64,000 nucleotides of DNA from positions 1 through 64,000 of the IMG/VR virus record IMGVR_UViG_3300023184_005191; one strand, given 5' to 3'. The stretch comes from a virus. The notes below the pieces were generated by a model. That model was not told the DNA's origin. It saw nothing but the letters and a program-made list of their open reading frames with translations, and did not search any database. Shown here piece by piece: positions 8,890 to 34,192 of this stretch. The translations under genes were made by a program, and so were the position numbers. Position 1 is the first letter of the stretch; every line of letters starts with the position of its first letter.

Positions 8890-9114
8890 AAGTAAAGTTT
8901 TTTGCTCTTTTGTTTCTTTAAGTTGGTTCAATAATGTTTTCTCTACCATGTTTATATCATGGTGAGTGCTGATTATTTCTTTCTCTATTTGTTTAATTTT
9001 CTTTTTAAACATTTTCAAGTTTGAGGTATACTGTACTATAAAGAACATAGCTATAAAAAGTAGTACTACAAGTATTCCTGTAAGGAATAGTAATATTGAG
9101 ATCATTGTTTCCAT
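8881..9114 (-). CDS. Membrane-anchored coiled-coil protein
   Basis: 77 residues: an N-terminal transmembrane helix (about residues 4-28) followed by a Lys/Glu/Gln-rich amphipathic helix to the C-terminus. The start overlaps the end of the next gene by 13 bases, so the two are likely co-translated. The arrangement resembles small spanin- or adaptor-like proteins, but no family is recognised. Confidence 0.65.
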   Translation of the reverse strand: METMISILLFLTGILVVLLFIAMFFIVQYTSNLKMFKKKIKQIEKEIISTHHDINMVEKTLLNQLKETKEQKTLLKG

Positions 9115-9464
9115 AATTTAGTTTTTAGTTTTTTTATTTGTTTTTCATTTAATTTGAAAGTGGAAGATTTGGCTGATATTTCTATCTCATTCTCAAACGG
9201 GGTATATCTAACTGATGTATTACCTACATAAGTGTAATATGTTTTTTGATTGTTGAGTGCACTCAATAGTTCCTCTAGAAATAAATCCATCATATTTTTA
9301 TTACCTACCACTAAGTAAGAAGTGTGGTAATATATTTTATATGTTGGTTCGGAATTTTGAATTACTCGTTCAATTCTGAGTTCTTGTTTTTTGTCTTTAA
9401 GTATGGTTTGTCCCATTGTGTTTAGGGAAAAACAAATCATAAATATTAATAATATATTTTTCAT
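9102..9464 (-). CDS. Exported protein, unknown function
   Basis: 120 residues from ATG at 9464. The N-terminus (MKNILLIFMICFSLNTMGQ) is a clear Sec signal peptide with a Bacteroidota-like GQ end. The rest is beta-rich and basic. An upstream in-frame start at 9488 would put eight polar residues before the signal peptide and is less likely. It overlaps the upstream gene. A periplasmic or surface location in the infected cell is inferred. Confidence 0.65.
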   Translation of the reverse strand: MKNILLIFMICFSLNTMGQTILKDKKQELRIERVIQNSEPTYKIYYHTSYLVVGNKNMMDLFLEELLSALNNQKTYYTYVGNTSVRYTPFENEIEISAKSSTFKLNEKQIKKLKTKLWKQ

Positions 9465-9475
9465 TTTAAATTGTT

Positions 9476-10048
9476 TTAATCCCACCATCCTTCAATTTCG
9501 CGAGACATTATTGTAAATATTAATTCTTTTGCTTTTTCTTGTCTTAAATCACCCATAATCATTGCCACAAGTTTTTTATCATTGTGATCAGTAGTAAATC
9601 TATTTTGATTTTCTTTAATATAATTAATGGCTCTTTTTTGCCAGGTTGGATATTTTGTAAGATATGAATCAAAATCCTCACTAATTATGTTCATTTCCAA
9701 TTCTTTAAAATCTGGTTTGTCTTCTATATCTAAAAATACCATTTCACTTTCATGGTAATCCATGTATTCAGCATCATAGTAACCATTTTTAACACGCTCA
9801 ATTAAACGAGCAACTAGTTGCATTCGAGAAGCATCATGTTTAGCTCTAGTATGAATATCCCTACCACCAATATATTCAGCTTGAAATTCAATCTTTGTTT
9901 TGAGTATTTCATAAATGAAGGATTGATCCCAATTCCTATCTTTCCAGATAACAGGAAACCATTTCCATAAGTTCTTCACTCCTGCTATAAAATCTTTACG
10001 CATGTACTTTCCACTGAAGTACCACCATGCACTTACTTTGTCTAACAT
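9476..10048 (-). CDS. Conserved phage protein
   Basis: 190 residues. The pattern IHTRAKHDASRMQLVARLIERV recurs in a family of phage proteins of unknown function. Rich in Trp and acidic residues. It probably heads the unit with the exported and coiled-coil proteins downstream; no clear two-box promoter was found immediately upstream. Confidence 0.75.
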   Translation of the reverse strand: MLDKVSAWWYFSGKYMRKDFIAGVKNLWKWFPVIWKDRNWDQSFIYEILKTKIEFQAEYIGGRDIHTRAKHDASRMQLVARLIERVKNGYYDAEYMDYHESEMVFLDIEDKPDFKELEMNIISEDFDSYLTKYPTWQKRAINYIKENQNRFTTDHNDKKLVAMIMGDLRQEKAKELIFTIMSREIEGWWD

Positions 10049-13092: not shown

Positions 13093-13258
13093 TGTTACTA
13101 GTTATAAGGTTGAGTATGAAGGCAACGTCTTGCACACATACAGCAGATCCTCTTTCCTGATAACTGAAAAGACCATCCTAGTGAGCGGATCTTACGGGAC
13201 GCCCGATGGTACTTTGGGCCTGCGGATACTATCCACAGGGGGGGATTATTTATAATTG
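13093..13258 (-). ncRNA. Structured RNA candidate a
   Basis: No ORF. The stretch is GC-richer than its surroundings and holds several pairings: AGATCC/GGATCT closing about 36 bases (13145-13192), GCCC/GGGC and GGAT/ATCC hairpins. It lies between a tRNA and a terminator on the same strand. No match to RNase P, tmRNA or 6S RNA is visible. Function unknown. Confidence 0.4.
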
Positions 13259-13331
13259 TGGACCAGCCTGGGCTTGAACCAGGGACTCTCGCTTTATGAG
13301 AGCGACACTCTACCAGCTGAGTTACAGGTCC
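13259..13331 (-). tRNA. tRNA-Met (CAT)
   Basis: Cloverleaf read by eye: acceptor GGACCTG/CTGGTCC (one T-T mismatch), D-arm with AGCTGGTAGAG, anticodon stem TCGCT/AGCGA with loop CTCATAA, T-stem CCTGG/CCAGG with loop TTCAAGC. The CAT anticodon gives elongator Met, initiator Met or lysidine-modified Ile; elongator Met is assumed. Confidence 0.9.
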
Positions 13332-13392
13332 AATTTAGATTTCTAAAACCGTTTTAATCAGTGACGGAAACTCTATCTGTTGTTTTTTGCGT

Positions 13393-13495
13393 AGTCAGGA
13401 CAGGATTCGAACCTGTATGCGTAACTTTCTTGGTTCTACCCCAATGGCACGCTATCCACTCATTACTTTAGCGTCTACCATTCCGCCACCTGACT
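13393..13495 (-). tRNA. tRNA-like element 2, over-long
   Basis: 103 bases. The 7-bp acceptor stem AGTCAGG/CCTGACT, T-arm (ACAGG/CCTGT, loop TTCGAAT) and a Leu-type D-arm (GGCGGAATGGTAGACGC) are clear. The centre is abnormal: a CGCTA/TAGCG pairing competes with the D-arm, and a TTGG/CCAA hairpin with loop GGTAGAA would present TAG but lacks T33. Real Leu-type tRNA with an insert, or a decaying gene. Confidence 0.5.
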
Positions 13496-13503
13496 ATTTT
13501 AAA

Positions 13504-13630
13504 AAAAATTAACTTATCGATTGTAACTTATATACGCTTGAGTTACATTCCCATTTACCATAGTGGACAAATTCGTATCTATTTCCACTCCTTATTGCCT
13601 ACTTCTTTTTCAGCTCCTAGGTTAATTTTT
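13504..13630 (-). ncRNA. Structured RNA candidate b
   Basis: A 10-bp terminal inverted repeat (AAAAATTAAC/GTTAATTTTT) bounds this 127-base ORF-free spacer between two tRNA-like elements. An inner GTAACT/AGTTAC pairing is also visible. Function unknown. Confidence 0.4.
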
Positions 13631-13632
13631 GT

Positions 13633-13755
13633 AGTCAGAACAGGATTCGAACCTGTATGATAACTTATGAGCAGTCTTAACGGGTCTTTCGAGGTTACTC
13701 TGCGTTATCTTTACTATTAACCTTTATTCATGCGTCTCCATTCCGCCACCTGACT
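13633..13755 (-). tRNA. tRNA-like element 3, over-long
   Basis: 123 bases with acceptor AGTCAGG/TCTGACT, T-arm ACAGG/CCTGT with loop TTCGAAT and the same Leu-type D-arm (GCGGAATGGAGACGC) as element 2. The middle of about 80 bases holds GATAAC/GTTATC and GCAG/CTGC nested stems instead of an ordinary anticodon arm. No anticodon assigned. Confidence 0.45.
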
Positions 13756-13756
13756 A

Positions 13757-13886
13757 TTTAAAAAATGTACTTACTTCCCACCTGCTCATTGTAGTACTTG
13801 TATGAAATCCCCTTCATACACCCGATGTCGCAGCTGTTAGGACAGCTCACATTCCCTCAAGATTTTAACCTAACTCTTGAGCCATT
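13757..13886 (-). ncRNA. Structured RNA candidate c with three hairpins
   Basis: Three successive strong hairpins in an ORF-free spacer: TGTATGAA/TTCATACA (13799-13820), AGCTGT/ACAGCT with a 4-base loop (13832-13847) and CTCAAGA/TCTTGAG (13856-13881). None is followed by a T run, so they are not ordinary terminators. Confidence 0.45.
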
Positions 13887-13887
13887 G

Positions 13888-13961
13888 TAGCGTGCTGTGG
13901 ATTCGAACCACCCCTGAAGTTTATGAGACTCCCATGCAACCATTTACACCTTACCGCAATA
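13888..13961 (-). tRNA. tRNA-Met-like (CAT), weak acceptor stem
   Basis: The anticodon arm GGAGT/ACTTC with loop CTCATAA and a T-arm GTGG/CCAC with loop TTCGAAT are good. A D-arm around AAATGGTTGCAT is plausible. The acceptor pairs only over about three bases, so the 5' end is approximate and the gene may be degenerate. Anticodon CAT duplicates the Met tRNA at 13259. Confidence 0.5.
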
Positions 13962-13964
13962 TGG

Positions 13965-14036
13965 TATTCCCACGGAGAATCGAACTCCGATTTTCAGGAT
14001 GAAAACCTGATGTCCTAACCGTTAGACGATGGGAAC
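13965..14036 (-). tRNA. tRNA-Glu (TTC)
   Basis: 72 bases, canonical cloverleaf: acceptor GTTCCCA/TGGGAAT, D-arm with CTAACGGTTAGGAC, anticodon stem TCAGG/CCTGA with loop TTTTCAT (anticodon TTC), T-stem CGGAG/CTCCG with loop TTCGATT. Confidence 0.93.
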
Positions 14037-14039
14037 AAT

Positions 14040-14169
14040 TTGAGGGTGAGAAGTCCTCTGTGTTGTGTGATGTACCGCCGCCAGCCTTGGCATATTATTT
14101 GTTTTTTAACCACCCTTAATAATATATCACTGGTACGACTGCACTCTCGGTTCTCAAGGGAACAACACA
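14040..14169 (-). ncRNA. Structured RNA candidate d
   Basis: ORF-free spacer between tRNA-Glu and tRNA-Leu. TGTGTTGT near one end pairs with ACAACACA at the other, and ATATTATT pairs with AATAATAT inside. Function unknown. Confidence 0.4.
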
Positions 14170-14171
14170 TT

Positions 14172-14255
14172 GTACGCAAAGAGAGACTCGAACTCTCACA
14201 CCTTTCGGCAACGGATCCTAAATCCGGCGTGACTACCAATTCCACCACTCGCGCA
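14172..14255 (-). tRNA. tRNA-Leu (TAG)
   Basis: 84 bases with a long variable arm. The acceptor TGCGCGA/TTGCGTA pairs over seven positions with two G-U. D-arm GGTGGAATTGGTAGTCACGC, anticodon loop TTTAGGA (TAG) on a CGGA/TCCG stem, T-stem GAGAG/CTCTC with loop TTCGAGT. Confidence 0.88.
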
Positions 14256-14299
14256 TTTTATTTTTCTAATATTTCAAACAACTTTCTTTTCTTATACTT

Positions 14300-14330
14300 T
14301 AATATACGAAAAATTTATTTAATCTCCAAA
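14300..14330 (-). promoter_or_regulatory. Type-2 promoter for the tRNA cluster
   Basis: TTTGGA, 18 bases, TATATTA, about 45 bases upstream of tRNA-Leu. It is the only such promoter inside the RNA cluster and would transcribe the Leu, Glu and Met tRNAs and their spacers. Confidence 0.55.
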
Positions 14331-14337
14331 TTCTTCA

Positions 14338-14391
14338 GGGAGGACTTGATAAGGGGTAACCAAACGGACTTTTACCCTTACCTCGCCTCCC
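14338..14391 (-). ncRNA. Long bipartite hairpin
   Basis: GGGAGG pairs with CCTCCC outside, and TAAGGGGTAA with TTACCCTTA inside, giving a long hairpin directly upstream of the tRNA promoter. There is no clear T run after it on the minus strand, but it may still end the upstream transcript. Confidence 0.5.
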
Positions 14392-14430
14392 GTCTTTATA
14401 TCTTATTGTTTTGTTTCCAATATTTTTTAT

Positions 14431-14622
14431 AAAAGATGATAAATGGCTTTATCAGGAATCTTGCTGTAACCATAAACACTTCCTATAGTTTCTATACTAT
14501 CGTCATTAGTATTTATGAGCTTCACACACCATTAGAGAGCTGAGTATTTCTACTTATCCTTAGTGTATACCTTTGCGTCACGCCTCTCCGCGCTTACCAT
14601 TCTACGCTTTTTATCATCTTTT
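14431..14622 (-). ncRNA. Structured RNA candidate e, 13-bp terminal stem
   Basis: A perfect 13-base inverted repeat (AAAAGATGATAAA/TTTATCATCTTTT) encloses 166 bases without an ORF. The stop codon of the HNH gene lies inside one arm. Inner pairing TATAG/CTATA is visible. A segment AGAATGGTAAGCGC resembles the D-arm of the tRNA-like elements, but no T-loop is found. It could be a tRNA-like remnant, part of a mobile element with the HNH gene, or a regulatory RNA. Confidence 0.45.
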
Positions 14623-15129
14623 ATTTTTTCCTTTATATGTATCTTGGATAGAATCACAGTTAGAACATAAAAAACGTAAATTAGTTAATTTATTATCATC
14701 TCTAATACCATTAATATGATCCAATATTAAGGGCATTTTTTTACCTCTCCAATTATCATCACAACCACATTCATGACATAAATAAGATATTATGTTATTT
14801 CTGATAATAAATCTTTTTAAAGGGACTCTAATAGAACTACTATATGTTCCTATATGTTCAACTTCACCATTTAATAAAGGCCAATAATCATAAAATTTTT
14901 CTTTTTTAAGTGGTTTTATATTTTCTTTTTTATCTCGTTTTCTAGGTTTTCCTTTTAATGCTTTACTTATTTTTTCTTTATGTTCTTCTGTTCTAATCCC
15001 ATCCCATTTAATTCCAAGAGTTTTTAAATGGTACCCTATAGTACCTTTACTTATCCCTAATATATTACATATTTCAGGAATGTTTTTTCCTTGCATTTTT
15101 AATTCAAAAATTTTGTCTTTGGTTTTCAT
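14614..15129 (-). CDS. HNH homing endonuclease
   Basis: 171 residues. An N-terminal helix-turn-helix (IPEICNILGISKGTIGYHLK) and a NUMOD3-like stretch (EEHKEKISKALKGK) precede a C-terminal HNH nuclease domain with CHECGCDDNW, LILDHINGIRDDN and NLRFLCSNC. Such free-standing enzymes cut cognate DNA lacking the element and spread by repair; in T4 several lie in the tRNA region. A TATTTATAATAAA motif lies just upstream of the start. Confidence 0.9.
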   Translation of the reverse strand: MKTKDKIFELKMQGKNIPEICNILGISKGTIGYHLKTLGIKWDGIRTEEHKEKISKALKGKPRKRDKKENIKPLKKEKFYDYWPLLNGEVEHIGTYSSSIRVPLKRFIIRNNIISYLCHECGCDDNWRGKKMPLILDHINGIRDDNKLTNLRFLCSNCDSIQDTYKGKNKR

Positions 15130-15139
15130 CTAATATTAT

Positions 15140-15152
15140 TTTATTATAAATA
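15140..15152 (-). promoter_or_regulatory. TATnTATAATAAA motif, HNH gene
   Basis: TATTTATAATAAA, 10 bases before the HNH start codon. The same motif precedes the other homing endonuclease genes and the tagged proteins. Confidence 0.45.
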
Positions 15153-15176
15153 TATGAAAATCTCGAACTTATTCAG

Positions 15177-15258
15177 TGCCTGTAGGAGGACTCGAACCTC
15201 CGGACCCGTCAGGGAAAGCATTTACAGTGCTCCGCAATTGCCGCTATGCGATACAGGC
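15177..15258 (-). tRNA. tRNA-Tyr (GTA)
   Basis: 82 bases: acceptor GCCTGTA/TACAGGC with discriminator A, D-arm with AGCGGCAATTGC, anticodon stem GAGCA/TGCTT with loop CTGTAAA (GTA), a long variable arm (CCCTGACGGG) and T-stem GGAGG/CCTCC with loop TTCGAGT. Confidence 0.93.
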
Positions 15259-15262
15259 GTTT

Positions 15263-15364
15263 AATATTAAGTCGCACGGAATCCAACTGGTGCTTATTAC
15301 TAGAATCTTGTAGCTTACTTACCATGGTTAATACCGTTACTACTAGGAAACCCAACTTAATATT
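15263..15364 (-). ncRNA. Structured RNA candidate f, 10-bp terminal stem
   Basis: AATATTAAGT/ACTTAATATT forms a perfect 10-bp terminal stem around an ORF-free spacer between tRNA-Tyr and tRNA-Gln. A weak T-arm-like GCAC/GTGC hairpin sits next to one end, so it may be a tRNA-like remnant. Confidence 0.4.
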
Positions 15365-15366
15365 TG

Positions 15367-15438
15367 ATCTCCCCCAAGGTCTCGAACCTTGATTCTATGC
15401 TCCAAAAGCACATGTCCTGCCAATTAGACGAGGGGAAA
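15367..15438 (-). tRNA. tRNA-Gln (TTG)
   Basis: 72 bases: acceptor TTTCCCC/GGGGAGA with one G-U, D-arm GTCTAATTGGCAGGAC, anticodon stem TGTGC/GCATA with loop TTTTGGA (TTG), T-stem CAAGG/CCTTG with loop TTCGAGA. Confidence 0.92.
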
Positions 15439-18712: not shown

Positions 18713-18743
18713 GAATATACGAAAAATATATTTTATCTCCAAA
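18713..18743 (-). promoter_or_regulatory. Type-2 promoter for the thyA transcript
   Basis: TTTGGA, 18 bases, TATATTC, about 40 bases upstream of the ATG at 18674. Confidence 0.55.
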
Positions 18744-19806
18744 TCTTTTTTAAAGAACCATCATCATATATCTCAAGTATTAAACCAGATGTAGAAGAGG
18801 ATACTTCCTGTCCCAAAACATTCAAATATTTTACAACAGTTTTATTTCCTCTATTATCAATAGAGATAGGATCATATGTTCTAGAATTTCCATCAAAATC
18901 AACTTGTGTTAATCTATAATAGTTTATTGTTTGAGGAGCTGAATAATCTGTAAATGAATAGTCTAATTTAGAGGATGAATTATTTGCTCCCTCTATTTTA
19001 GCTATTGTGGAAAATTCGCTGTTAATTGAGCGCTCAAGTAGGAAATGACTATTGTTGTGCTCAGAGCCTGTCTGCCAATTTAATACGTTATATTCGTTGG
19101 TTTTATGCCCTGTAAATTGAGTTAGCTCAATGGGAAGAAATTCAACTTTAAGTAATTGAATATTATCAATCCACCATTCTTCCCCAGCTGAATTAATACG
19201 ACAATAAATGTCAATTGCTAGTTGGGTAATACCAGTAGGCATAGTTAATGTAATAGTTGATGGACCTGTGGTTGTACTTCCAACGGGGGCAGCATATACA
19301 TCTCCTGTTGGAGCTGCTGAGTTAGTGAATGTTCCGTTAGCTGTATGATTGATTATACCAGTTGAGGTATATGGCCAAATAGAATTATTATTACCTGTTA
19401 TCCTAAGCTCAGTTACATATGAAACTCCCCCATTTCTAGATACTTGAACACTAATATAATCTGCTACATCAACCCCTTTAGTAGTAGCTGTTGATGTAAA
19501 AGATTGAGATGCTAATTTAAATTTTAATTGGTATGTACTTGAGGGATTTAACCCAGTTATATTGGGTAACGAATACCAATCTTGCTCAATGATAGAGGCA
19601 GCATTACCTAAACCATAAATTACTGCACTTTGATTAGAGGAAACAAATGTGTTTGTTGCCCAAGTAGCTGTTACTGCGGGGGTCCACCATCCTGCTGTTA
19701 AATAGGAAGTGGAAGAGGTTTCCATAAAATCATATTGAATAATAGTTTGTGCGGTGATTGAACTACACGCCAGTATAAATAATGATAGTAAAAGTAAATT
19801 TTTCAT
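18733..19806 (-). CDS. Secreted protein with T9SS sorting domain
   Basis: 357 residues. An N-terminal signal peptide (MKNLLLLSLFILACSSITAQ) leads into a beta-rich Ser/Thr/Asn-rich domain (about 21-225), then a fibronectin-type region (ELTQFTGHKTNEYNVLNWQT to FTDYSAPQTINYYRLTQVDF) and a C-terminus (YLNVLGQEV, then YDDGSLKKI) that matches type-A T9SS sorting domains of Bacteroidota. Such proteins cross the outer membrane by the type IX system and are anchored or released. This phage gene therefore seems to use a host-specific export route; alternatively it is a captured host gene. Confidence 0.8.
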   Translation of the reverse strand: MKNLLLLSLFILACSSITAQTIIQYDFMETSSTSYLTAGWWTPAVTATWATNTFVSSNQSAVIYGLGNAASIIEQDWYSLPNITGLNPSSTYQLKFKLASQSFTSTATTKGVDVADYISVQVSRNGGVSYVTELRITGNNNSIWPYTSTGIINHTANGTFTNSAAPTGDVYAAPVGSTTTGPSTITLTMPTGITQLAIDIYCRINSAGEEWWIDNIQLLKVEFLPIELTQFTGHKTNEYNVLNWQTGSEHNNSHFLLERSINSEFSTIAKIEGANNSSSKLDYSFTDYSAPQTINYYRLTQVDFDGNSRTYDPISIDNRGNKTVVKYLNVLGQEVSSSTSGLILEIYDDGSLKKIWR

Positions 19807-20368: not shown

Positions 20369-20704
20369 TTAAGAAATCACTAAAGAATACATTCCTGTTC
20401 CTCTTAAATAATATGTTGTTCCCACTACTGGGGTGGTAGGTGTAAAGGTAAATGAAGTAACCCCAGGTTGAACAACCACACTTGAGATATAAGATGAGGT
20501 AACTAGCCCCATAGAAGATGATACACTATATGTACCTTCACAATTTCTAGGAGAATTAGAGGTATAAACAGAGGAAGTTGTGATTGTCTCTATTGTAAAA
20601 TAAGACGAACCAGATGGATTAGTAAATGTAAATGTTTTTAAACCTGATAAATTCTCTCCAATTGATCCAGTCCCGTATAGTTGTTGATAAGTGTATGAAG
20701 CCAT
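20369..20704 (-). CDS. Beta-rich Ser/Thr protein, possibly structural
   Basis: 111 residues, very rich in Ser, Thr, Tyr and Gly with alternating hydrophobic residues, like small Ig-like or decoration domains of virions (VQPGVTSFTFTPTTPVVGTT). No catalytic motif. A structural role is an inference from composition. It starts at the stop of the next gene upstream (one-base overlap). Confidence 0.6.
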   Translation of the reverse strand: MASYTYQQLYGTGSIGENLSGLKTFTFTNPSGSSYFTIETITTSSVYTSNSPRNCEGTYSVSSSMGLVTSSYISSVVVQPGVTSFTFTPTTPVVGTTYYLRGTGMYSLVIS

Positions 20705-22749: not shown

Positions 22750-23607
22750 TTAAATAATTTCAAATTCTATATCTACATCTGCTAATCCCCAATCTTGTGT
22801 ATTTTTGGTTTGGGAAAAATTCTCAACCCATTCCCAAGGATCATTATAGTGTTGTTTTGAAGGGGATGAACCATCATTCCCCATTCCTGTATGAGATAAA
22901 TGATATAATGGAAGATCAAAATATGCTTCTAAATTATATCCATTTAAAACTGCTTTCTTTTGAACATTTGTATCATTAAAACAAGAATATATCATTTGTT
23001 CTTCAAATCCTTTAATATTTTTCCAAACATCCTTATAAGCAAATTGGAAATCCCCACAACAATTAATTAAACTATATCTATCATTTGGGGTTACTTGAGC
23101 TGGAGAATATCTAGGTTGGCTTTCTATATCTAATTGATCTCTAAGTTCTCTCCAATTGTCAAATCCTATGTTTTCAAGTTCTGAGTATTCAATGTCTCTT
23201 CTAGATACTGAGTAAAATGTATTTTTATTTGTTTTAGATATAAAATCAGTAAATAATTCTTTTTTAGGAGCAATAATATCCATTGTAGAGCATACTATCC
23301 AATCAGCTTCACATCTCTGTAACATTATATTCTGGGATAAAACACCATTAAATGGGCTTACATTGGGATTATAATTGTTTAATATTTTAGATGTGGATTC
23401 ATCTATAACAAAATGTCTAATTTTACCTGTTTTTGGAATTTTATCTTTTAACTCCCATAAAAGTGGTAGTTTTCCTTGGGGAGTATTCCAATCACAAAAC
23501 CAAACTTCATCAAATGTTTCTATCATAGAAGTTAAACATGTGATAATTCTTTCATTTTCTTTATAATTGTCATTACGACATCCTAATAAAATTGCTGTTT
23601 TTTCCAT
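22750..23607 (-). CDS. Glycosyltransferase-like (GT-A) protein
   Basis: 285 residues from ATG at 23607. ILLGCRNDNYKENERIITCL at the start and ADWIVCSTMDIIAPKK in the middle fit the nucleotide-sugar-binding half of a GT-A fold, with DMD-type residues in CSTMDI. The C-terminus (LPLYHLSHTGMG) is like GT2-type capsule enzymes. The frame is open to 23646, but that would overlap gmd. It is the last gene of the sugar operon; donor and acceptor are unknown. Confidence 0.72.
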   Translation of the reverse strand: MEKTAILLGCRNDNYKENERIITCLTSMIETFDEVWFCDWNTPQGKLPLLWELKDKIPKTGKIRHFVIDESTSKILNNYNPNVSPFNGVLSQNIMLQRCEADWIVCSTMDIIAPKKELFTDFISKTNKNTFYSVSRRDIEYSELENIGFDNWRELRDQLDIESQPRYSPAQVTPNDRYSLINCCGDFQFAYKDVWKNIKGFEEQMIYSCFNDTNVQKKAVLNGYNLEAYFDLPLYHLSHTGMGNDGSSPSKQHYNDPWEWVENFSQTKNTQDWGLADVDIEFEII

Positions 23608-23618
23608 AATATAAATTA

Positions 23619-24596
23619 TTAAGATTTTTTGTAAAAATTTAACCAATATTCAATCATTTCATCTAACATTGTTTCAAATGTATATGTAGGTTCCCACCCA
23701 ATAGATTTTCTTAATTTACTAGAATCACCTTTTAAATCACGTAATTCTTCAGGTCTAAGATATCTTTCATCTTGAATAACATAATCTTTCCAATTTAAAT
23801 CTAAACTTGTAAAAACATAATCACATAAATCTTTAACAGAATGAGAAATACCAGTAGAACAAACATAATCATCAGGTTTTTCTTGTTGTAATATCATCCA
23901 CATAGCCTCCACATAATCTTTAGCATGACCCCAATCTCTAGTAGCATCCAAATTACCCAATTTAAGATTATTTGATAATCCTAATTTAATTTTAACTGCT
24001 TCTTTTACAACTTTGTTTGTTACAAAATTAGTTCCACGTCTTGGAGATTCATGGTTAAATAAAATCCCATTCGAAACAAACATATCATATGAATGTCTGT
24101 AATTTCTGCTAATATTATAAGCAAATACCTTAGCACATCCATAAGGTGATACTGGGTTTAATTGGGTTGTTTCTCTTTGAAATCCATCCTCATCTATAGT
24201 ATTTCCAAACATCTCCGAAGAGGAAGCTTGGTATAATTTTATTTTTGGATTTATTAATCTAACAGCTTCTAACACATTTAAAGTTCCAATTCCAGTAGCT
24301 TGTGCTGTGTATACTGGTTGGTCAAATGATATAGCAACGTGGGATTGGGCCCCTAAATTATATATTTCATCTGGAGAATATTTAATGATTACTCTAATGA
24401 TTGATGCTAAATCAGTTAAATCTACATATTCGAGTTTTATTTTATCAATGACTGGGTCTAAACGATATGTTTGATTTTCTGCTACTGAATTTCTTTTTAA
24501 GGTTCCAATTATTGTGTATCCCTTTTCTATTAAAAATTCAGCCAAATATGATCCATCCTGTCCATTAATTCCAGTTATTAGTGCTATTTTACCCAT
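23619..24596 (-). CDS. gmd: GDP-mannose 4,6-dehydratase
   Basis: 325 residues from ATG at 24596; an upstream TTG at 24605 is less likely. NAD(P)-binding GINGQDGSYLAEFL, the catalytic SSSEMFG and YGCAK (YxxxK), and the substrate loop ILFNHESPRRGTNFV are complete. It converts GDP-mannose to GDP-4-keto-6-deoxymannose, the entry point to fucose, perosamine, colitose and branched sugars. Its ATG overlaps the stop of the ColD-like gene, so the two steps are translationally coupled. Confidence 0.93.
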   Translation of the reverse strand: MGKIALITGINGQDGSYLAEFLIEKGYTIIGTLKRNSVAENQTYRLDPVIDKIKLEYVDLTDLASIIRVIIKYSPDEIYNLGAQSHVAISFDQPVYTAQATGIGTLNVLEAVRLINPKIKLYQASSSEMFGNTIDEDGFQRETTQLNPVSPYGCAKVFAYNISRNYRHSYDMFVSNGILFNHESPRRGTNFVTNKVVKEAVKIKLGLSNNLKLGNLDATRDWGHAKDYVEAMWMILQQEKPDDYVCSTGISHSVKDLCDYVFTSLDLNWKDYVIQDERYLRPEELRDLKGDSSKLRKSIGWEPTYTFETMLDEMIEYWLNFYKKS

Positions 24597-25740
24597 TATT
24601 GACAATTTTAATAATTAAATTTATTTCTTCTTTAGTTAAGTCTTGATGATTAGGAATATAAAATCCAAATTCATTTATAAATTTACAATTTTTTAATTCA
24701 ATATCCCCATAATTTTCATAATAAAATGGCTTTTTAGATAAATCCCCAGCTATTAAAGGTCTACATTCTATATTATTTTCCATTAAATTTTTAATTATGT
24801 TAATTTTATTTTTATGAACAATAGGCATTGCAAAATTTGAGATAAAATCTTCAGAATTAATATTTAAATCCAACTCATTGTTTTTTATACCATTCATATA
24901 ATAATAGAAATTTTTATTTCTTAATGTTGAAAAATTATCTAGTTTATCTATTGCTCTTATTCCTATAAATGCTTGAAGATCTGTTGATCTTAAATTCATT
25001 CCAGGAAGATAAAAATTATATAGATTATCAAAATCATTCAAATTATATTTTTCCTTTAATTCTTTTTGTTTATGTATTGGGAGGTCTCTAGCCCATCCAT
25101 GACTTCTCATCATCAATAATGAATAATAAAATTCTTCATCATCTGTATTAATAAATCCACCTTCAATAGTGCTTAAATGATGTCCAAAGTACATTGAGAA
25201 AAAAGAAGCTAATCCAAACGTTCCTAAATATTTTTCCTTATATTTAGATCCCATACTCTCACAAACATCTTCCAAAAGTAAAACATCATATTGGTGGCAT
25301 AATTCTAAAATTTTCTCCATGTTTGGAACTAACCCTAATACAGATACTAATATAAGAACACTAGGTGACTCTGTTTTAAAAATTTCTTCTAAATGTTCTA
25401 AATCACAAGATAAATCATTTAAATTACAATCACATAAAACAGGTTTTAAACCCAATAATATAGGTGAGGATAAATCAGTAGCCCAACTTAATGAAGGAAC
25501 TACTACTTTATTATTTTTTAGACGATTAGTATGTTTTAGAGCAGCTAATGTTAATAAAATAGATGAAGATCCTGAATTTACAAATACTGAATACTTAGTT
25601 CCTAATTTTTTAGCCCATTTTTCTTCTAGTTCAAGGGTTAGATTTCCTTTGGTAAGTTTAGGTATCTCATCTTGAGATAACCATTCAATTAAATGATTAA
25701 TATCATTCTTATCTATTGTATCGCTAACTAATTTAATCAT
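24589..25740 (-). CDS. ColD/RfbH-like PLP sugar 3-dehydratase
   Basis: 383 residues, DegT/DnrJ/EryC1 aminotransferase fold (FVNSGSSSILLTLAALK, VLLLEDVCESMGS). At the position of the PLP-binding Lys the sequence reads YFGHHLSTIEGGF: His replaces Lys, as in ColD and RfbH (E1), which remove the 3-hydroxyl instead of transaminating. With GMD upstream the predicted product is GDP-4-keto-3,6-dideoxymannose. A plain GDP-perosamine synthase is unlikely because the Lys is missing. Confidence 0.82.
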   Translation of the reverse strand: MIKLVSDTIDKNDINHLIEWLSQDEIPKLTKGNLTLELEEKWAKKLGTKYSVFVNSGSSSILLTLAALKHTNRLKNNKVVVPSLSWATDLSSPILLGLKPVLCDCNLNDLSCDLEHLEEIFKTESPSVLILVSVLGLVPNMEKILELCHQYDVLLLEDVCESMGSKYKEKYLGTFGLASFFSMYFGHHLSTIEGGFINTDDEEFYYSLLMMRSHGWARDLPIHKQKELKEKYNLNDFDNLYNFYLPGMNLRSTDLQAFIGIRAIDKLDNFSTLRNKNFYYYMNGIKNNELDLNINSEDFISNFAMPIVHKNKINIIKNLMENNIECRPLIAGDLSKKPFYYENYGDIELKNCKFINEFGFYIPNHQDLTKEEINLIIKIVNNG

Positions 25741-25743
25741 AAT

Positions 25744-26748
25744 TTATTTATACTGGTTAATATATTTCATCCATTCTATAACGTTTTCTAATCCTGTTTC
25801 AAGCTTGATAAAATTTTGTTTATTAAATTCATTAATATATTTTTCTGAGCTAATATTAACTATTTTAGGACTACCTATTAAATTGGATGAGTTTGTTGGG
25901 GTAAGGATTGGTTTGTTTAGTTTAGTACCTATATTAATAGCTAATTCCTTAATAGATATATTTGAAAAACCACTTACATTATATGTTATTTCATTACCAT
26001 GTAATAATATATTCCAAAACATTTCAACAACATCAGTAATATAACAATATGTTCTAAGAGCAGATCCATCATCCATCAATTCAATAGTATTATTATTTAA
26101 TCCTTTATCTATTATACTATTTAATACTCTTAAATCCCCTAATTTAGTAAAAGGACCATATGCTAAACTTAATCTAGCTATTTTTATATCATATCCTGAA
26201 GTAATGTAACTATGACATATAGTTTCTCCACATCGTTTAGATTCAATATAGCATGCTCTATTATGAGATGGAGTTGTAGTTCCAATTTGAGATTCATCAA
26301 TATTAAAACTATCATTTCCACTATATATTTCACTTGTACTTACAAATAAAAATTTACCATCTGGTTTTAATGAGTCTAATAAATTAATGGTAGCATGAGT
26401 ATTAATTTTAATAGTAGTTAAACTATCACTAAGAAATTTCATTGGTTGAGCATATCCTGATGAATGAATAATCACATCAAAAAACTTAGGTTCTAATTTA
26501 ACAGATGTTATATCCTCTTTAATTTCTGTGTAAGGAAAATTATAATATTCCTTTAAATATTCTGGAATTGAATTTTTGTAAGATAAGTATAGATCAATAT
26601 TAAATTCACTTTGAAGTTTTTTAATACATTGAGCTAAGTAAAATCCTACTAACCCAGATGCCCCTGTAATGAGGACTTTTTTATTTTGTAGTGCTGAAAA
26701 ATCAATATTTTTTACTACGTTATCAATATCTTTATTTAAGAAATCCAT
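25744..26748 (-). CDS. NAD-dependent sugar epimerase/reductase (SDR)
   Basis: 334 residues. Extended SDR with GASGLVGFYLAQ, the catalytic STSEIY and YIESK (YxxxK), and ARLSLAYGPF. It resembles UDP-glucuronate decarboxylase/4-epimerase-type enzymes. In this operon it could reduce or epimerise the branched 4-keto sugar intermediate. Exact chemistry is unknown. Gene packing is tight (one-base overlap with the transketolase C-terminal gene). Confidence 0.82.
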   Translation of the reverse strand: MDFLNKDIDNVVKNIDFSALQNKKVLITGASGLVGFYLAQCIKKLQSEFNIDLYLSYKNSIPEYLKEYYNFPYTEIKEDITSVKLEPKFFDVIIHSSGYAQPMKFLSDSLTTIKINTHATINLLDSLKPDGKFLFVSTSEIYSGNDSFNIDESQIGTTTPSHNRACYIESKRCGETICHSYITSGYDIKIARLSLAYGPFTKLGDLRVLNSIIDKGLNNNTIELMDDGSALRTYCYITDVVEMFWNILLHGNEITYNVSGFSNISIKELAINIGTKLNKPILTPTNSSNLIGSPKIVNISSEKYINEFNKQNFIKLETGLENVIEWMKYINQYK

Positions 26749-27620
26749 TATATAAGTTTATTAAATTTGTCTTTAAGTGAATCAACATCTAGCCCTAATA
26801 ATTTATCTATTTGAGGTTTTTTTCCATAAGATAATATAAATTCTCTAGGTATCCCAATGTTAGTTAACTTATATGATATTCCTTCTAAGGCTTTAGTAAC
26901 AAAATAATTAGTAGAACCTTCATAAAACGGTTCACAAATTATGATATTATCATTGAAATGTTTTTTTAATGTTTCATCATCAAATGGAACAATTGTGGAA
27001 TAATATAATAAAGTAACATCTATGTCTTTAACAGCTTCATATACTGGAGTTAGCATATTACCATAACATATAATAAGGGCTTTATTACCTTCTTTAATAA
27101 CATTTGCTTTACCAAATATGACTTCAAAATCTAAATTATGTTCATATTCACTAAGTCTAAAATAAGTAGGAGCTTCATTATTATAAGTTTGGGAAAATAA
27201 ACTATCAAATTCTTTTGAACTTCCAGGAGATATTATCTGCATGTTTGGGATGGTTGATAATATAGAAACATCACCCGGACAATGATGTGTACATCCTAAA
27301 CCAGCATAATCATATGAATTTCCAATGCTGATAAAATTGCCATTTAGGTTTTGGTATCCAAAATCTGTTTTTAATTGTTCAAATGCTCGTTCAACTATAA
27401 AAGGTGCTATAGTATGTACAACAGGTATCATATTAGCTTTACTCATTCCAGATGCTAAACTAATTGTTGATTGTTCTAAAATTCCTATATTATATGTTCG
27501 GTCGGGGTACAGTTCAAAACATTTGGAAAATCCAAACACCCCTATATCACCTAAAAGAAGACATAAATTATCATCTTTTGACATGGTGTCTTGAATTGTT
27601 GTTACAAATTGTTTTCTCAT
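26748..27620 (-). CDS. Transketolase C-terminal subunit
   Basis: 290 residues covering the pyrimidine-binding and C-terminal domains of transketolase (LLLGDIGVFGFSK, IGILEQSTISLASGMSKA with the catalytic Glu, GLGCTHHCPGDVSIL). The N-terminal half is encoded at 28194-28952. Split transketolases occur in several bacteria; two-subunit forms in sugar clusters transfer a two-carbon unit to a keto sugar. Starts at the stop of the methyltransferase gene. Confidence 0.87.
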   Translation of the reverse strand: MRKQFVTTIQDTMSKDDNLCLLLGDIGVFGFSKCFELYPDRTYNIGILEQSTISLASGMSKANMIPVVHTIAPFIVERAFEQLKTDFGYQNLNGNFISIGNSYDYAGLGCTHHCPGDVSILSTIPNMQIISPGSSKEFDSLFSQTYNNEAPTYFRLSEYEHNLDFEVIFGKANVIKEGNKALIICYGNMLTPVYEAVKDIDVTLLYYSTIVPFDDETLKKHFNDNIIICEPFYEGSTNYFVTKALEGISYKLTNIGIPREFILSYGKKPQIDKLLGLDVDSLKDKFNKLI

Positions 27621-28180
27621 TATTTTTTATTAAAATAAAACCAACTTCCATCCATAAACGTAGCTACTGGAATTTCATTAAAATGCTCATTAAGGGCTCT
27701 TGAAATTGGTTCAAAGTTACAATCATGACCTGCTATAATTCCTCCATTTTTAACTTTTTTAGACCAATTAACTAAATCTTCTTTTATGGATGAATACTGG
27801 TGGTTTCCATCAATATACACAAAATCTATACTATCATCAGAAATTAGAGAAGAATATTGAGATGAAGGCATTTTATTTTTTCTCATATTAGGATATCTTT
27901 CCATTACAGATTCAAAAATCTTTTCTGCTTCCATTAATTCTAATGCTTGTCTATTAAGATCCCAAGTATAATCATCTTCTGTATATTGTTCCCAAGGATC
28001 AACACAATTCAAAATACTTCCAGGAAAACTTCCAGCAATAATCTCTCCACTAGCTCCACAATATGAACCAATTTCTACTATTTGTAATCCATTATCACCC
28101 AGGTAAGATTTAATACTATTACATAATTCTAAAAGTCCTTGTTTTTGAGTGTCTTCTCTCATTTTATAAGTTAATTCCAT
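27620..28180 (-). CDS. Class I SAM methyltransferase
   Basis: 186 residues. Motif I VEIGSYCGASGE and the segment IDFVYIDGNHQYSSIKEDL followed by GGIIAGHD fit the Methyltransf_24-type family that modifies small molecules including sugars. The gene sits between the two transketolase halves. The target (O- or C-methylation of the sugar) is not known. Confidence 0.83.
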   Translation of the reverse strand: MELTYKMREDTQKQGLLELCNSIKSYLGDNGLQIVEIGSYCGASGEIIAGSFPGSILNCVDPWEQYTEDDYTWDLNRQALELMEAEKIFESVMERYPNMRKNKMPSSQYSSLISDDSIDFVYIDGNHQYSSIKEDLVNWSKKVKNGGIIAGHDCNFEPISRALNEHFNEIPVATFMDGSWFYFNKK

Positions 28181-28193
28181 TTTTATTTTATTA

Positions 28194-28952
28194 TTAATTA
28201 TTATTTAATTCATTAATTATATCTTGATATTCTATTTCATTTGGAAATTTATGATGCCATTCTGGGTTGTTTTCTATCATAGATATTCCTTTTCCTTTTA
28301 TAGTGTTTGCTATAATACAAGTTGGTTTGGAGGTTGGGTTGGTCAATGTTGATAATATTTGATCATGATTATGCCCATCTATTTCGAATACATCCCATCC
28401 AAATGATAAAAATTTCATATGTAAATTTCCTAAATCTACTGCTCTATCAGTGGAATGGTTAAAATCAATTATGCAACATAAATTATCAAGATTATGATGT
28501 TTGGCTAACAATGCTGATTCCCATATAGTTCCTTCATTTGACTCTCCATCACCTACTATAACATATACTTTACCTTTATATTTTTTAATTTTATAAGCTA
28601 AAGCTAATCCAACTCCAATAGGCAAACCATGTCCTAAAGAACCAGTAGATGATTCTACTCCAAATATTTTATCTGTTGGGTGTCCACCTAATTTACTATT
28701 TAAATCACAGAATGTGTCTAAATCATCTTTAAGTAAGTTAAAATGATCTAATATTACATATAAACCTAAAGAAGCATGCCCTTTACTTAAAATAAAACGA
28801 TCTCTATCTATTTTATTTTTTTTAATACTATCAATATCTAGAACTTTATCATATAAAACGTACATTATATCCAATATGGATAATGAACTTGGGATATGTC
28901 CTTCTTTTTTTAAAGTAGCTATATCTACTATTTTTTCTTTTAATTTATTCAT
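28194..28952 (-). CDS. Transketolase N-terminal subunit
   Basis: 252 residues holding the ThDP diphosphate-binding domain: ILSKGHASLGLY, GSLGHGLPIGVGLALAYK and the metal-binding GDGESNEGTIWESA ending near IDFNHS. It pairs with 26748-27620. The adjacent ColD-like and GMD genes suggest that the donor two-carbon unit goes to a GDP-4-keto deoxysugar rather than to a pentose phosphate. Confidence 0.88.
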   Translation of the reverse strand: MNKLKEKIVDIATLKKEGHIPSSLSILDIMYVLYDKVLDIDSIKKNKIDRDRFILSKGHASLGLYVILDHFNLLKDDLDTFCDLNSKLGGHPTDKIFGVESSTGSLGHGLPIGVGLALAYKIKKYKGKVYVIVGDGESNEGTIWESALLAKHHNLDNLCCIIDFNHSTDRAVDLGNLHMKFLSFGWDVFEIDGHNHDQILSTLTNPTSKPTCIIANTIKGKGISMIENNPEWHHKFPNEIEYQDIINELNNN

Positions 28953-29450
28953 TTACAATAATTTAGCAGTGCTGTCTCTTAAAGATAATAATGGATTTTT
29001 AATAGGCCACGAAATATTAATTTTTGGATCATTCCATTTTAATGTAAATTGTTCATCAACATCTGGATAATTTCCTGGGTATGCCCATTTATAGTGGAGT
29101 AAGGCTATATCACTTAATACCATAAATCCAATTGCAAAGTCAGGTGGGGTTAAAACTTGTTTTCTTGTTTTATCATCTAAAATTATAGAATCCCATTTTA
29201 AATAATTGGGGGAATCTACTCTATTATCTACAACTACAAAAAACATCTCTCCATGTAAACATGATGTTAACTTCCATGATTTATTATCACCATGCATTCC
29301 TCTTAAAACATATTGTGATGATGATGAAATTTTATCATGTTTAAAATCCATTGGTGGATTAAAATGATCTCTATTCCATAGAGTTAACAAATCACCTCTA
29401 AGATCAGTGTATACATCTGGTTGGTATATTTTTACTTCTGGGAATATCAT
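28953..29450 (-). CDS. RmlC-like sugar 3,5-epimerase family protein
   Basis: 165 residues, cupin fold of the dTDP-4-dehydrorhamnose 3,5-epimerase family: the catalytic His in LRGMHGD and LTPPDFAIGFMVLSD. The usual Tyr-containing loop reads LLHYKWAYPG. Shorter than RmlC (about 180). It may epimerise the GDP-linked keto sugar; no other rhamnose genes are present. ATG overlaps the gene upstream by 4 bases. Confidence 0.8.
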   Translation of the reverse strand: MIFPEVKIYQPDVYTDLRGDLLTLWNRDHFNPPMDFKHDKISSSSQYVLRGMHGDNKSWKLTSCLHGEMFFVVVDNRVDSPNYLKWDSIILDDKTRKQVLTPPDFAIGFMVLSDIALLHYKWAYPGNYPDVDEQFTLKWNDPKINISWPIKNPLLSLRDSTAKLL

Positions 29451-30238
29451 ATTTCGATTATATTTTGGTTTGGGAATTGGAAATGGCAGATTCCTTCTAT
29501 CATTATATTTTTATGGGATGGATCTCCTATTTGATATACTTTAATAGCTTCACATAAATTTTTATATATATCTAAATGTACGAATGATTTTTTAGATAGA
29601 CTATTTCTTTTAACACATTCTTTAATAAAATTTTCACATGACCAATTTTCAATATATTCCCAAATTTTTCCGTTGTAATTATTTATTGTTTTTGAATATT
29701 CATATGTCTTATCAAGATATGCTTTATCATTCAGATAATCGCTTTTATTAACATTTATAAAATAAAAATTTGATTGGGGATAGAAATATTCTGTATAAAG
29801 TTTTTCATAATCAAAATTATTCAAATACAATGTTTCATATGATATACCATCTAAATAATAGAAATCTGCTTCTTCTATTTCTTTCTTTAAAATGGTTTCT
29901 TGAAAAATAACATCATTTGCTGATTTGCAGAGCCATTCTTCATTATTTTCTTTGCACCAATCAAATACCATGTTATCCAAATCAGCAGTACCAAAATTAT
30001 GGCCTCGGTTTACTTCAGAGTCTATTATAATACAATTTGGAAAATATTTTTTCCATAATTGAGTATTTTTATTCTGTAATGGAGAACCATAATTAGTAGC
30101 AACAACAATTTGTTTAAATTCCTCTAAAACTGGGGAATTGTACAGAATATATGATTCTAGGGTATCTAAATCATCTTGGGATGTAATGTATCCTATAGTT
30201 CCATATACTGTTTTATTAATAAGTTGCTTTAAATTCAT
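29447..30238 (-). CDS. Putative glycosyltransferase
   Basis: 263 residues, Asn/Tyr-rich. The segments QIVVATNYG and NRGHNFGTADLDNMVFDW, with AND at EWLCKSANDVIF, resemble a GT-A fold donor site. The family assignment is weak. It is coupled to the RmlC-like gene by a 4-base overlap. Confidence 0.62.
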   Translation of the reverse strand: MNLKQLINKTVYGTIGYITSQDDLDTLESYILYNSPVLEEFKQIVVATNYGSPLQNKNTQLWKKYFPNCIIIDSEVNRGHNFGTADLDNMVFDWCKENNEEWLCKSANDVIFQETILKKEIEEADFYYLDGISYETLYLNNFDYEKLYTEYFYPQSNFYFINVNKSDYLNDKAYLDKTYEYSKTINNYNGKIWEYIENWSCENFIKECVKRNSLSKKSFVHLDIYKNLCEAIKVYQIGDPSHKNIMIEGICHFQFPNQNIIEI

Positions 30239-30254
30239 TCTAAGTAATTAAATT

Positions 30255-31358
30255 TTAAATATTTTTTTCTGTTTGAATCAAATTTAAAGCTGATTCAATG
30301 ATTTGGTGCATGTCATAATATTTGTATTCTGCTAATCTTCCCCCAAATATTGTATTTTTTTCATTATCTCCTAAACTTTTGTATTTTTTATATTTAATAT
30401 TATTTTTAATATCATTTACAGGATAATAAGGTTCAGTTTTTTTAGCATTATATTCAACCGGGTATTCTTCTGTTATCCAAGTATGTTTAGATTCAATATT
30501 TTCAAAATGCTTATGTTCAATAATTCTAGTGAATGGAACTTTATATTCAGTAAAATTCATCATAGCTGTACCTTGAAAATTAGAGGTATTTTCTAAAAAT
30601 ATATGTTTAAAATTAGTAGTTTTATACTCTAACTCTCCAAATTGATAATTAAAGTAAGCATCAATAGGTCCAGTATATATAACTTTATCAGTTTGATTAT
30701 TCCAATAATCTTTATCTTTAAGATAATCAACACCTAATTTAACCTCAATACCATCTAATAATTTTTCAAATATTTGAGTATAACCTCCAATTGGGATTCC
30801 TTGATATCTGTCATTAAAATAATTATTATCATATGTAAATCTAACAGGGAGTCTTTTTATTATTTCTTTTGGTAAAAATTTAGGGTCTTTTTTCCATTGT
30901 TTATGAGTATAACCTTTAATTAGTTTTTCATAAACATCTATACCAACTAATTTAATTGCTTGTTCTTCTAAATTAGTAGGTTCAATAATGTGATTACCTT
31001 GAGATTCAATAATATATTTGGCTTCATCAGGACGGGTTATATTCCATAACTTAGAAAAGGTCCACATATTAAATGGTAAAGAATAAATTTCTCCTTTATA
31101 GTTAGCTACAGGTCTTAAAGTAAAATCATTAAAAGATGCAAACTGGTTAATCCATTTCCATATATCTTGATTTGATGTATGAAATATATGAGGGCCATAT
31201 TCATGGATATTTATTCCATCTTTGTTAGAAGTATAACAATTACCCGCAATGTGATTTCGTTTTTCTAAAACTAAACATTTATAACCTTTTTTAGTTAATT
31301 CATGAGCACAAATAGAACCAAAAAATCCTGCACCAACTATTATATAATTATATTTCAT
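30255..31358 (-). CDS. glf: UDP-galactopyranose mutase
   Basis: 367 residues, typical of bacterial Glf. FAD-binding YIIVGAGFFGSICAHEL, the EYGPHIFHTSN loop, KGYTHKQW, and the C-terminal GGRLAEYKYYDMHQII are all present. It interconverts UDP-galactopyranose and UDP-galactofuranose using reduced FAD, so the assembled glycan probably contains galactofuranose. A second ATG two codons upstream (31364) is possible. Confidence 0.93.
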   Translation of the reverse strand: MKYNYIIVGAGFFGSICAHELTKKGYKCLVLEKRNHIAGNCYTSNKDGINIHEYGPHIFHTSNQDIWKWINQFASFNDFTLRPVANYKGEIYSLPFNMWTFSKLWNITRPDEAKYIIESQGNHIIEPTNLEEQAIKLVGIDVYEKLIKGYTHKQWKKDPKFLPKEIIKRLPVRFTYDNNYFNDRYQGIPIGGYTQIFEKLLDGIEVKLGVDYLKDKDYWNNQTDKVIYTGPIDAYFNYQFGELEYKTTNFKHIFLENTSNFQGTAMMNFTEYKVPFTRIIEHKHFENIESKHTWITEEYPVEYNAKKTEPYYPVNDIKNNIKYKKYKSLGDNEKNTIFGGRLAEYKYYDMHQIIESALNLIQTEKNI

Positions 31359-31929
31359 ATGCATATATTAAAGGCCAAATTCTTTCAAAAACCCAAGGTA
31401 ATAAACCATCACTATTATGAAATTCATATAATTGTTCCCACCATTCTAATGGTTTAGAAATAATACATGATTTTAAAACTAGATATTGAGCTCCTTGAGA
31501 AAATATTAAATCATCATCATGTTCTATCCCTATTTGATTTAAAGTTTCTTTAATAGGTAACCCAGAATGATGTGGACCTCCATTTATATCACATTCTAAA
31601 TAATATTTTTCTAAATGCTTATTCATTAAAAATGTAACTTTATTTTTAATTTGATAAGTAGTTATATTTTTACTATTTAAATGGGATAAAATATCATTAC
31701 AATGATCAAAAGGATTACCTTGAATAAAAGCTATTTCATCTGGTAGATTTGGGTAATTTTCTATTATATATCTTAAAAAGGTTTCAGATTCTCTTCCATT
31801 ATTAGGAATAGAAGTAAAGGGGAAGTTTATATTGTTTTCACCTTTATTATAAATAAGATAAGGAATTTTTAATTCATTAATCCAATCCAAATTTTCATTA
31901 AATCTAGATATAACTGCTAATCTTTTCAT
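31348..31929 (-). CDS. DUF3431-like putative glycosyltransferase
   Basis: 193 residues. ISRFNENLDWINEL, LIYNKGENN, IPNNGRESETFLRYI, AFIQGNPFDH and FSQGAQYLVLKSCI match the order of conserved blocks in DUF3431-type proteins, which are believed to be glycosyltransferase-related. Overlaps the glf start by 11 bases. Confidence 0.72.
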   Translation of the reverse strand: MKRLAVISRFNENLDWINELKIPYLIYNKGENNINFPFTSIPNNGRESETFLRYIIENYPNLPDEIAFIQGNPFDHCNDILSHLNSKNITTYQIKNKVTFLMNKHLEKYYLECDINGGPHHSGLPIKETLNQIGIEHDDDLIFSQGAQYLVLKSCIISKPLEWWEQLYEFHNSDGLLPWVFERIWPLIYAYEI

Positions 31930-32795: not shown

Positions 32796-33535
32796 CAGAT
32801 AAATTTTTTAGGATTTTCATTGATGTATTCTATAAGTTTATTAGACCATTCTAACACTTCAATAGATCCGTGATGGTTCCAATTAATGTGTGGTCTACTT
32901 TCTTCAAAGGTTTGATCAAGTGGAGTATTTGTTATTTCTCCACCATCAGGCCTTTTATTTAGAATTGTTATATCAACCCATCTATTCAAATCTAAACCTT
33001 GATTTCTTATAGGACGCATAACATGTTCCCACCAATCATCTAACATTGGATGACCTTGTAAAGCCCCCATATGTTTACAAAAATCATGTGGGATTGTTGG
33101 AAATGCATTATAACCTTCCCACCATTTATGAGTAACTCCATCTTTAATAGATTCAATATGAATTGCAACTAAAAAATTTTTATCTTTATATGGAATATAT
33201 AATTGTTCCCAACCTTCAGTTAACATTTCTACATCATCATTAAGACCTAATAAAAATTCTGCTTCTGAAAGGGAGGATAAATTATTCATATGTTTATCTA
33301 AGGAACCATAGCCATTTTCTCTATCAGTAATTAATTCTTTAATTTTAACAGATGAAGTTTGTTTATATTGTTGAATAAAATCAATAGTTTCTTGATCATC
33401 TGTATCTATTTTTAATAAAATTTCAACTAAAGATTTATCTTGGGTTTTAGTATTTAAACTATCTAAACACTCTTTTAATAATTTTACTCTTTTGCGTGTT
33501 GGAATTAAAACACTAACTAACTTTTTATATCTCAT
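32795..33535 (-). CDS. Family 2-like glycosyltransferase
   Basis: 246 residues from ATG at 33535. KLVSVLIPTRKRVKLLKECL is the canonical GT2 start, IDTDDQ and GLNDDVEML supply the acidic donor-site residues. The C-terminus (TFEESRPHINWNHHG) may be the acceptor side. An upstream in-frame start (33592) overlaps the neighbouring gene too much. Confidence 0.8.
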   Translation of the reverse strand: MRYKKLVSVLIPTRKRVKLLKECLDSLNTKTQDKSLVEILLKIDTDDQETIDFIQQYKQTSSVKIKELITDRENGYGSLDKHMNNLSSLSEAEFLLGLNDDVEMLTEGWEQLYIPYKDKNFLVAIHIESIKDGVTHKWWEGYNAFPTIPHDFCKHMGALQGHPMLDDWWEHVMRPIRNQGLDLNRWVDITILNKRPDGGEITNTPLDQTFEESRPHINWNHHGSIEVLEWSNKLIEYINENPKKFI

Positions 33536-34172: not shown

Positions 34173-34192
34173 ATAACTTTTTTATTTGAACG

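Follow-up and report, generated by a model that had tools for sequence, protein, structure and literature searches.

A conserved phage protein family carrying a Sec signal peptide and a candidate compact type IX sorting domain

A probable Bacteroidota virus of the IMG/VR collection (record IMGVR_UViG_3300023184_005191, 67,650 bases in full) encodes a protein with two export signals, namely a Sec signal peptide at its N-terminus and a miniature type A tail at its C-terminus, through which the type IX secretion system (T9SS) of the host would export it for display on the infected cell. We give this reading a probability of roughly three in four. The window analysed comprises positions 1 to 64,000 of the record. 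The architecture of the protein, the homology and spread of its tail, the selection acting on it and its occurrence in one copy per phage record were established by computation. An earlier note on this DNA had claimed that a phage product is exported by the host type IX system; the claim is supported, with the amendments that the domain is a short variant and that the idea had already been published (PMC7468147).

The cargo gene and its relatives

The gene and its parts have the following positions in the window:

18733 to 19806, minus strand: cargo gene, 357 amino acids, with Sec signal peptide, MAM-like domain, FN3-like domain and short T9SS-type C-terminal domain (open reading frame, relatives in IMG/VR)
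19750 to 19806, minus strand: Sec signal peptide, residues 1–19 (from the sequence; presumed signal peptidase I site before Gln20)
19141 to 19749, minus strand: N-terminal passenger, a MAM-like jelly-roll, about residues 20–222 (structural match to meprin MAM domains)
18847 to 19140, minus strand: FN3-like linker domain, residues 223–320, beginning 'LPIEL' (structural match; homologous domain at 40 Bacteroidota loci)
18736 to 18843, minus strand: putative short C-terminal sorting domain, residues 322–357 (KTVVKYLNVLGQEVSSSTSGLILEIYDDGSLKKIWR; from the model and the motif register)
18802 to 18828, minus strand: motif B equivalent, residues 327–335, YLNVLGQEV (register with bacterial sorting domains; Gly332 invariant)
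18766 to 18786, minus strand: motif D equivalent, residues 341–347, GLILEIY (register with bacterial sorting domains; Gly341 at least 90% conserved)
18736 to 18753, minus strand: motif E equivalent, residues 352–357, LKKIWR (Lys354 at least 90% conserved)

The coordinates at which the earlier note had placed a 357-residue open reading frame are correct; the strand is minus, and no open frame exists on the plus strand of 18733–19806. The protein begins with MKNLLLLSLFILACSSITAQT and ends with KTVVKYLNVLGQEVSSSTSGLILEIYDDGSLKKIWR. A scan of IMG/VR yielded relatives at 37 loci, with identities of 39–67% and on contigs of up to 226 kb, and the dN/dS over the whole protein ranges from 0.09 to 0.23 for measurable pairs. 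With 37 relatives and a dN/dS of about 0.1–0.2, a chance reading frame is excluded: the ORF is a real gene, and the family is under purifying selection. Nearly all full-length relatives keep one layout, consisting of a hydrophobic start, 'QT', about 200 residues leading to GEEWWIDNI, the 'LPIEL' domain and the short tail. This tail is present in exactly one copy in each of the 20 phage records that were searched whole.

The whole protein gave no meaningful match in Pfam, NCBIfam or PHROGs; weak Pfam matches, e.g., to Endotoxin_C and LPD37, lay below the cut-off and were disregarded. The single match in a sequence search of the PDB was judged to be due to chance, and a scan of bacterial genome contigs with the whole protein returned no relative. 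A0A6J5PHN9, an uncharacterised protein of 354 amino acids from an uncultured Caudovirales phage in BFVD, belongs to the same family, sharing 67% identity with the cargo protein, and is unannotated. Upstream of the gene, the relatives have no late-promoter-like or Bacteroidota-type motif in common.

Genomic context

The window proteins that were tested include a DNA polymerase of phage type, a clamp loader, GroEL, thymidylate synthase, glycosyltransferases and HNH endonucleases. The cargo gene is neighboured by thymidylate synthase and thioesterase genes in the window and in three relatives, and in several relatives GroEL is encoded within about 5 kb. Elsewhere, the endolysin gene lies about 3 kb upstream (L001), or the major head protein gene lies about 0.9 kb away and is accompanied by endonuclease VII (L020). 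Such a varied context is typical of accessory genes.

Over the neighbouring thymidylate synthase and thioesterase genes, the nearest isolated phages are those of Immutovirus immuto, which infect Flavobacterium (MW353175, 160 kb). These phages and the window virus both carry queuosine-type genes. A counterpart of the cargo protein was found neither in the Immutovirus region compared nor by tblastn of the phage collection. The Immutovirus-related 7-deazaguanine genes of the window are located at 51041–60588 (minus strand) and encode GTP cyclohydrolase, QueE, QueD and a distant DpdA-like transglycosylase, a gene content which suggests that the phage DNA is modified.

Several further minus-strand features were observed in the window. 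A run of surface-sugar genes at 22750–37638 encodes a DegT aminotransferase, a GDP-mannose dehydratase-like protein, an epimerase, UDP-galactopyranose mutase and glycosyltransferases, and also holds the halves of a transketolase-like protein as separate genes (26748–27620 and 28194–28952). A full-length phage GroEL, scoring above the NCBIfam cut-off, is encoded at 43576–45225. The stretch 13258–15438 holds five tRNA genes, for Met, Glu, Leu, Tyr and Gln, among which lies a gene for an HNH endonuclease. The second gene upstream from the cargo gene, at 20369–20704, encodes a small beta-rich, Ser/Thr-rich protein of 111 amino acids, for which no family match was obtained.

Signal peptide and passenger domains

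The signal peptide of the cargo protein reads MKNLLLLSLFILACSSITAQ/T. The 24 aligned relatives have similarly hydrophobic starts. The 'QT' that follows the presumed site of cleavage is nearly invariant among them, and Gln20 itself is invariant in the alignment. Glutamine after the signal peptidase I cleavage site is known as the Bacteroidota 'Q-rule'. The Sec signal peptide claimed previously is supported by the sequence and by its relatives. A second exported-looking protein of the window (9102–9488, minus strand, 128 amino acids) has a signal peptide ending in '..TMGQT'; it matches no family and lacks a sorting tail.

The whole protein was modelled with AlphaFold2 from 24 sequences, with a mean pLDDT of 75. 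In this model, the MAM-like part (residues 21–222) superposes on meprin MAM domains with a Z-score of about 10.5 and an rmsd of 3.1 Å over 143 aligned residues, residues 15–67 being of low confidence. No Pfam match was obtained for this part, whose GEEWWIDNI segment (residues 208–216) is invariant among the relatives. Residues 223–320 resemble solved FN3 domains with Z-scores of 10–11.6, which agrees with the fibronectin-like region described in the earlier note.

The C-terminal tail as a probable shortened sorting domain

The identity of the tail is less readily established. TIGR04183 has no match anywhere in the virus record, and the tail itself matches neither Pfam nor NCBIfam at E ≤ 10, nor any PHROG model. 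The earlier note had proposed a profile search against T9SS sorting-domain models as the check on its claim, with the lack of a match as refutation; no match was found, and by this measure the claim fails. Regarding the type-A-like sorting domain, a shortened variant that the standard models miss is supported by its position, motif register, predicted structure and use on bacterial proteins.

When phage tails were aligned with bacterial full-length sorting domains using hhalign, motifs B (NllGQEV), D (G-hydrophobic) and E (basic) fell in register. The probability of this alignment was only 39% before the shuffle control; none of 400 column shuffles reached the trimmed score of 21.5. The tail is 36–43 residues long, 5 residues separate motifs B and D, and the Tyr of the GxY in usual sorting domains is often Ile or Leu in the phage tails.

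AlphaFold2 places strands at residues 324–329, 342–347 and 352–356. A separate model of the 43-residue tail by itself, built from 22 tails, has a pLDDT of about 96 over residues 11–43 and shows three strands instead of the seven-stranded beta-sandwich of the type A sorting domain. Eighteen PDB entries match this model at Z ≥ 2, and the second and fifth places are taken by the CTDs of RemA (Z 3.0, 2.3 Å over 40 residues) and NucA (Z 2.8, 3.0 Å over 41 residues), both bound inside the T9SS translocon; as these Z-scores are low and tied with those of unrelated chains, the likeness of the modelled tail is supportive only. Peptidylarginine deiminase 5ak8 also appears among the matches and was set aside as evidence; the range matched presumably lies outside its CTD. 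A Foldseek search with the tail alone gave no significant PDB match. Despite the misses of the curated models, we nevertheless conclude that the phage tail is a shortened type A sorting domain.

Bacterial relatives and probable host

Using the FN3-like half plus the tail as the query over 84,980 species, 40 loci were obtained, all in Bacteroidota. In nearly all of these proteins, the position of the short phage tail is occupied by a T9SS sorting domain of full length, which in most cases has a PNP motif ('yPNP'). Crocinitomix algicola carries both combinations, i.e., the FN3-like domain with a long domain (L046) and with a short tail (L100). Furthermore, the short tail terminates unrelated secreted bacterial proteins, including a GH16 protein (L103), an endonuclease I (L102), a beta-propeller (L101), an LRR protein (L110) and a P-domain protein, and it lies at most 6 residues from the C-terminus in all 39 bacterial proteins fetched. 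In the Crocinitomix lineage, some proteins of 309–350 residues combine a signal peptide, an unrelated or distantly related N-terminal domain, the FN3-like domain and the short tail. The phage gene could plausibly derive from such a protein.

The short tail is present in 78 of 120 genomes of the C. algicola family and in 146 of 249 genomes of its order. Phylum-wide it was detected in 2 of 296 genomes, one of them being C. algicola, in a sample with few members of the order. At the bacterial loci sampled (L099–L103, L110, L112–L141), very different secreted proteins bear this domain, which occurs in about 60% of Crocinitomix-order genomes with up to 13 copies per genome, and is absent from Pfam and NCBIfam. 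Within the C. algicola family, SprA was found in 59 of 60 genomes and canonical sorting domains in all 60; ordinary tags number in the dozens there, and the short tail makes up the minority.

Since the short tail is common on the secreted proteins of the Crocinitomix lineage of Flavobacteriales itself, we infer that the host most likely belongs to this lineage. Immutovirus, however, which comprises the closest relatives among isolated phages, infects Flavobacterium, and the host could therefore be a Flavobacterium outside the short-tail lineage.

Four unannotated huge phages of 462–642 kb (L164–L167: LR745206, LR756504, LR756502, LR756500) also encode the FN3-like domain, followed by differing tails. 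The tail is short in L164 and, less clearly, in L166, longer and unmatched in L165, and a canonical TIGR04183 domain above the curated cut-off in the 462-kb phage L167. This exchange of a canonical domain (L167) for the short tail (L164) behind the FN3-like domain is a further argument that the tail is a shortened sorting domain. The proteins of L165–L167 also begin with a signal peptide. A viral scan with the tail as the query revealed no further architecture.

Proposed export route and function

In the proposed route, the Sec signal peptide would bring the cargo protein to the periplasm during infection and then be removed. The tail of 36–43 residues, predicted to form three strands that would correspond to strands 3, 6 and 7 of the normal domain and bearing motifs B, D and E, would be recognised and captured by the SprA/PorV translocon. 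The MAM and FN3 passenger would then exit to the outside of the infected cell and be released or attached. The steps beyond the sequence follow known T9SS biology, from which we infer actual export and the surface role of the protein.

Once displayed, the adhesin-like passenger may remodel the surface of the infected cell by masking receptors against superinfection or by changing cell–cell contact. The conservation of the passenger points to a function of the displayed protein itself, and masking or altered contact at the surface is our best guess at this function. Surface remodelling of the infected cell, e.g., for superinfection exclusion, is thus regarded as the likeliest role. The literature searched on phage resistance of T9SS mutants and on outer-membrane exclusion proteins yielded nothing applicable.

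The strongest competitor, which we consider possible yet somewhat improbable, is a lectin-like adhesin that aggregates or attaches infected cells to aid progeny spread or particle association, instead of excluding superinfection. The MAM-like passenger agrees with such a role, as do bacterial homologues of equal layout with N-terminal domains of jelly-roll size; masking fits equally well, however, and any ligand is putative. Unlikely is a decoy function, in which abundant T9SS-tagged cargo occupies SprA/PorV and reduces the export of host adhesins or receptors, so that superinfection is blocked by jamming. Competition of this kind is conceivable, given that about 1,850 square angstroms are buried when the RemZ CTD sits in the translocon (PMC10994853), and each phage record has exactly one copy of the tail. 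A decoy would nevertheless have no need of a conserved MAM-like domain with an invariant GEEWWIDNI, of a low dN/dS over the whole protein or of the FN3-like domain that is also retained.

We regard it as very unlikely that the protein is a virion component for decoration or adhesion, in which the domain layout derives from a host and the signal peptide and tail are relics. Ig and FN3 domains are frequent in phage structural proteins, and one relative (L020) is encoded close to the major head protein gene. In the window and several relatives, however, the neighbours are thymidylate synthase, thioesterase or GroEL; the conserved Sec signal peptide and exact C-terminal tag speak otherwise, and, unlike relics, the signal peptide, Gln+1 and tail are kept in nearly every full-length relative across identities of 40–65%. 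Least probable of all is a Sec-exported protein whose tail is a small hairpin stabilising the FN3-like fold, without a role in outer-membrane export: the curated sorting models do leave the tail unmatched, but it occurs on unrelated passengers lacking an FN3-like domain (L101, L102, L103, L110), always at the exact C-terminus, and is predicted to fold confidently by itself.

Taken further, the preferred reading of a T9SS-exported, surface-displayed protein leads to a wider proposal, which we put forward tentatively and at less than even odds. A compact type IX signal, previously described in Prevotella intermedia alone, would be common in one Bacteroidota order and would have been captured by phages to deliver an adhesin for superinfection exclusion or surface remodelling through T9SS.

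Significance

Phages of Bacteroidota appear to encode cargo for the host type IX system repeatedly, and present annotation overlooks the compact tag. A model of the short tail would bring to light numerous secreted proteins of Crocinitomicaceae and their phages that lack annotation, and the tail may serve as a sequence-based clue to the hosts of uncultured phages. As a small natural domain, it could also help to define the minimum that is recognised by the T9SS translocon. Should the infected cell be protected by the displayed protein, this would be superinfection exclusion via outer-membrane secretion machinery.

Comparison with known type IX systems

The common type A domain (TIGR04183, PF18962, Por_Secre_tail) shares its motif register, its C-terminal position and a C-terminal Lys with the phage tail. 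The latter is half as long, has four strands fewer and no N-terminal PNP region, and is unmatched by the model. Studies of individual sorting domains have shown that HBP35 can be exported by means of its final 22 residues alone, and that a Gly to Arg change in motif B blocks the secretion of RgpB (PMC11285876, PMC4804311). In type A domains, a near-invariant C-terminal Lys contacts PorV (PMC10994853); Lys354 is likely to be its equivalent.

The short CTDs of P. intermedia, which are functional sorting domains of 40–51 residues, bear motifs B, D and E with 1–6 residues from B to D, and are predicted to form one three-stranded sheet; cleavage and C-terminal glycosylation are proven for some members (PMC11969387). 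The pattern of a Sec signal peptide plus a C-terminal domain of about 40–55 residues is found in the cargo protein, whose tail of 36–43 residues lies at or slightly below the low end. The motifs are likewise present (G332 invariant, G341 and K354 at least 90% conserved, 5 residues from B to D), and the single sheet corresponding to strands 3, 6 and 7 of long CTDs may have a counterpart in the three strands predicted for the tail with a pLDDT of about 96, the Z-scores to the RemA and NucA CTDs (3.0 and 2.8) being low. The short tail described here differs in belonging to the Crocinitomix order and what are likely its phages, and the two groups are likened by their features.

Phage-encoded T9SS cargo was published in 2020 for Cryophage by Bellas et al., who propose that the host system is used (PMC7468147). 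As proposed for the window virus, proteins with T9SS type A sorting domains are encoded by the phage itself. The Cryophage cargo consists of an endoglucanase, a GH39 enzyme and a PA14 protein, which are variable genes with recognisable type A domains, whereas the window virus has a single conserved MAM and FN3 family with a short tail that is missed by all models. Phage-borne T9SS cargo is therefore already known as a concept; within the literature searched, what looks new is the cargo family, its short tail and the spread of that tail across a whole lineage.
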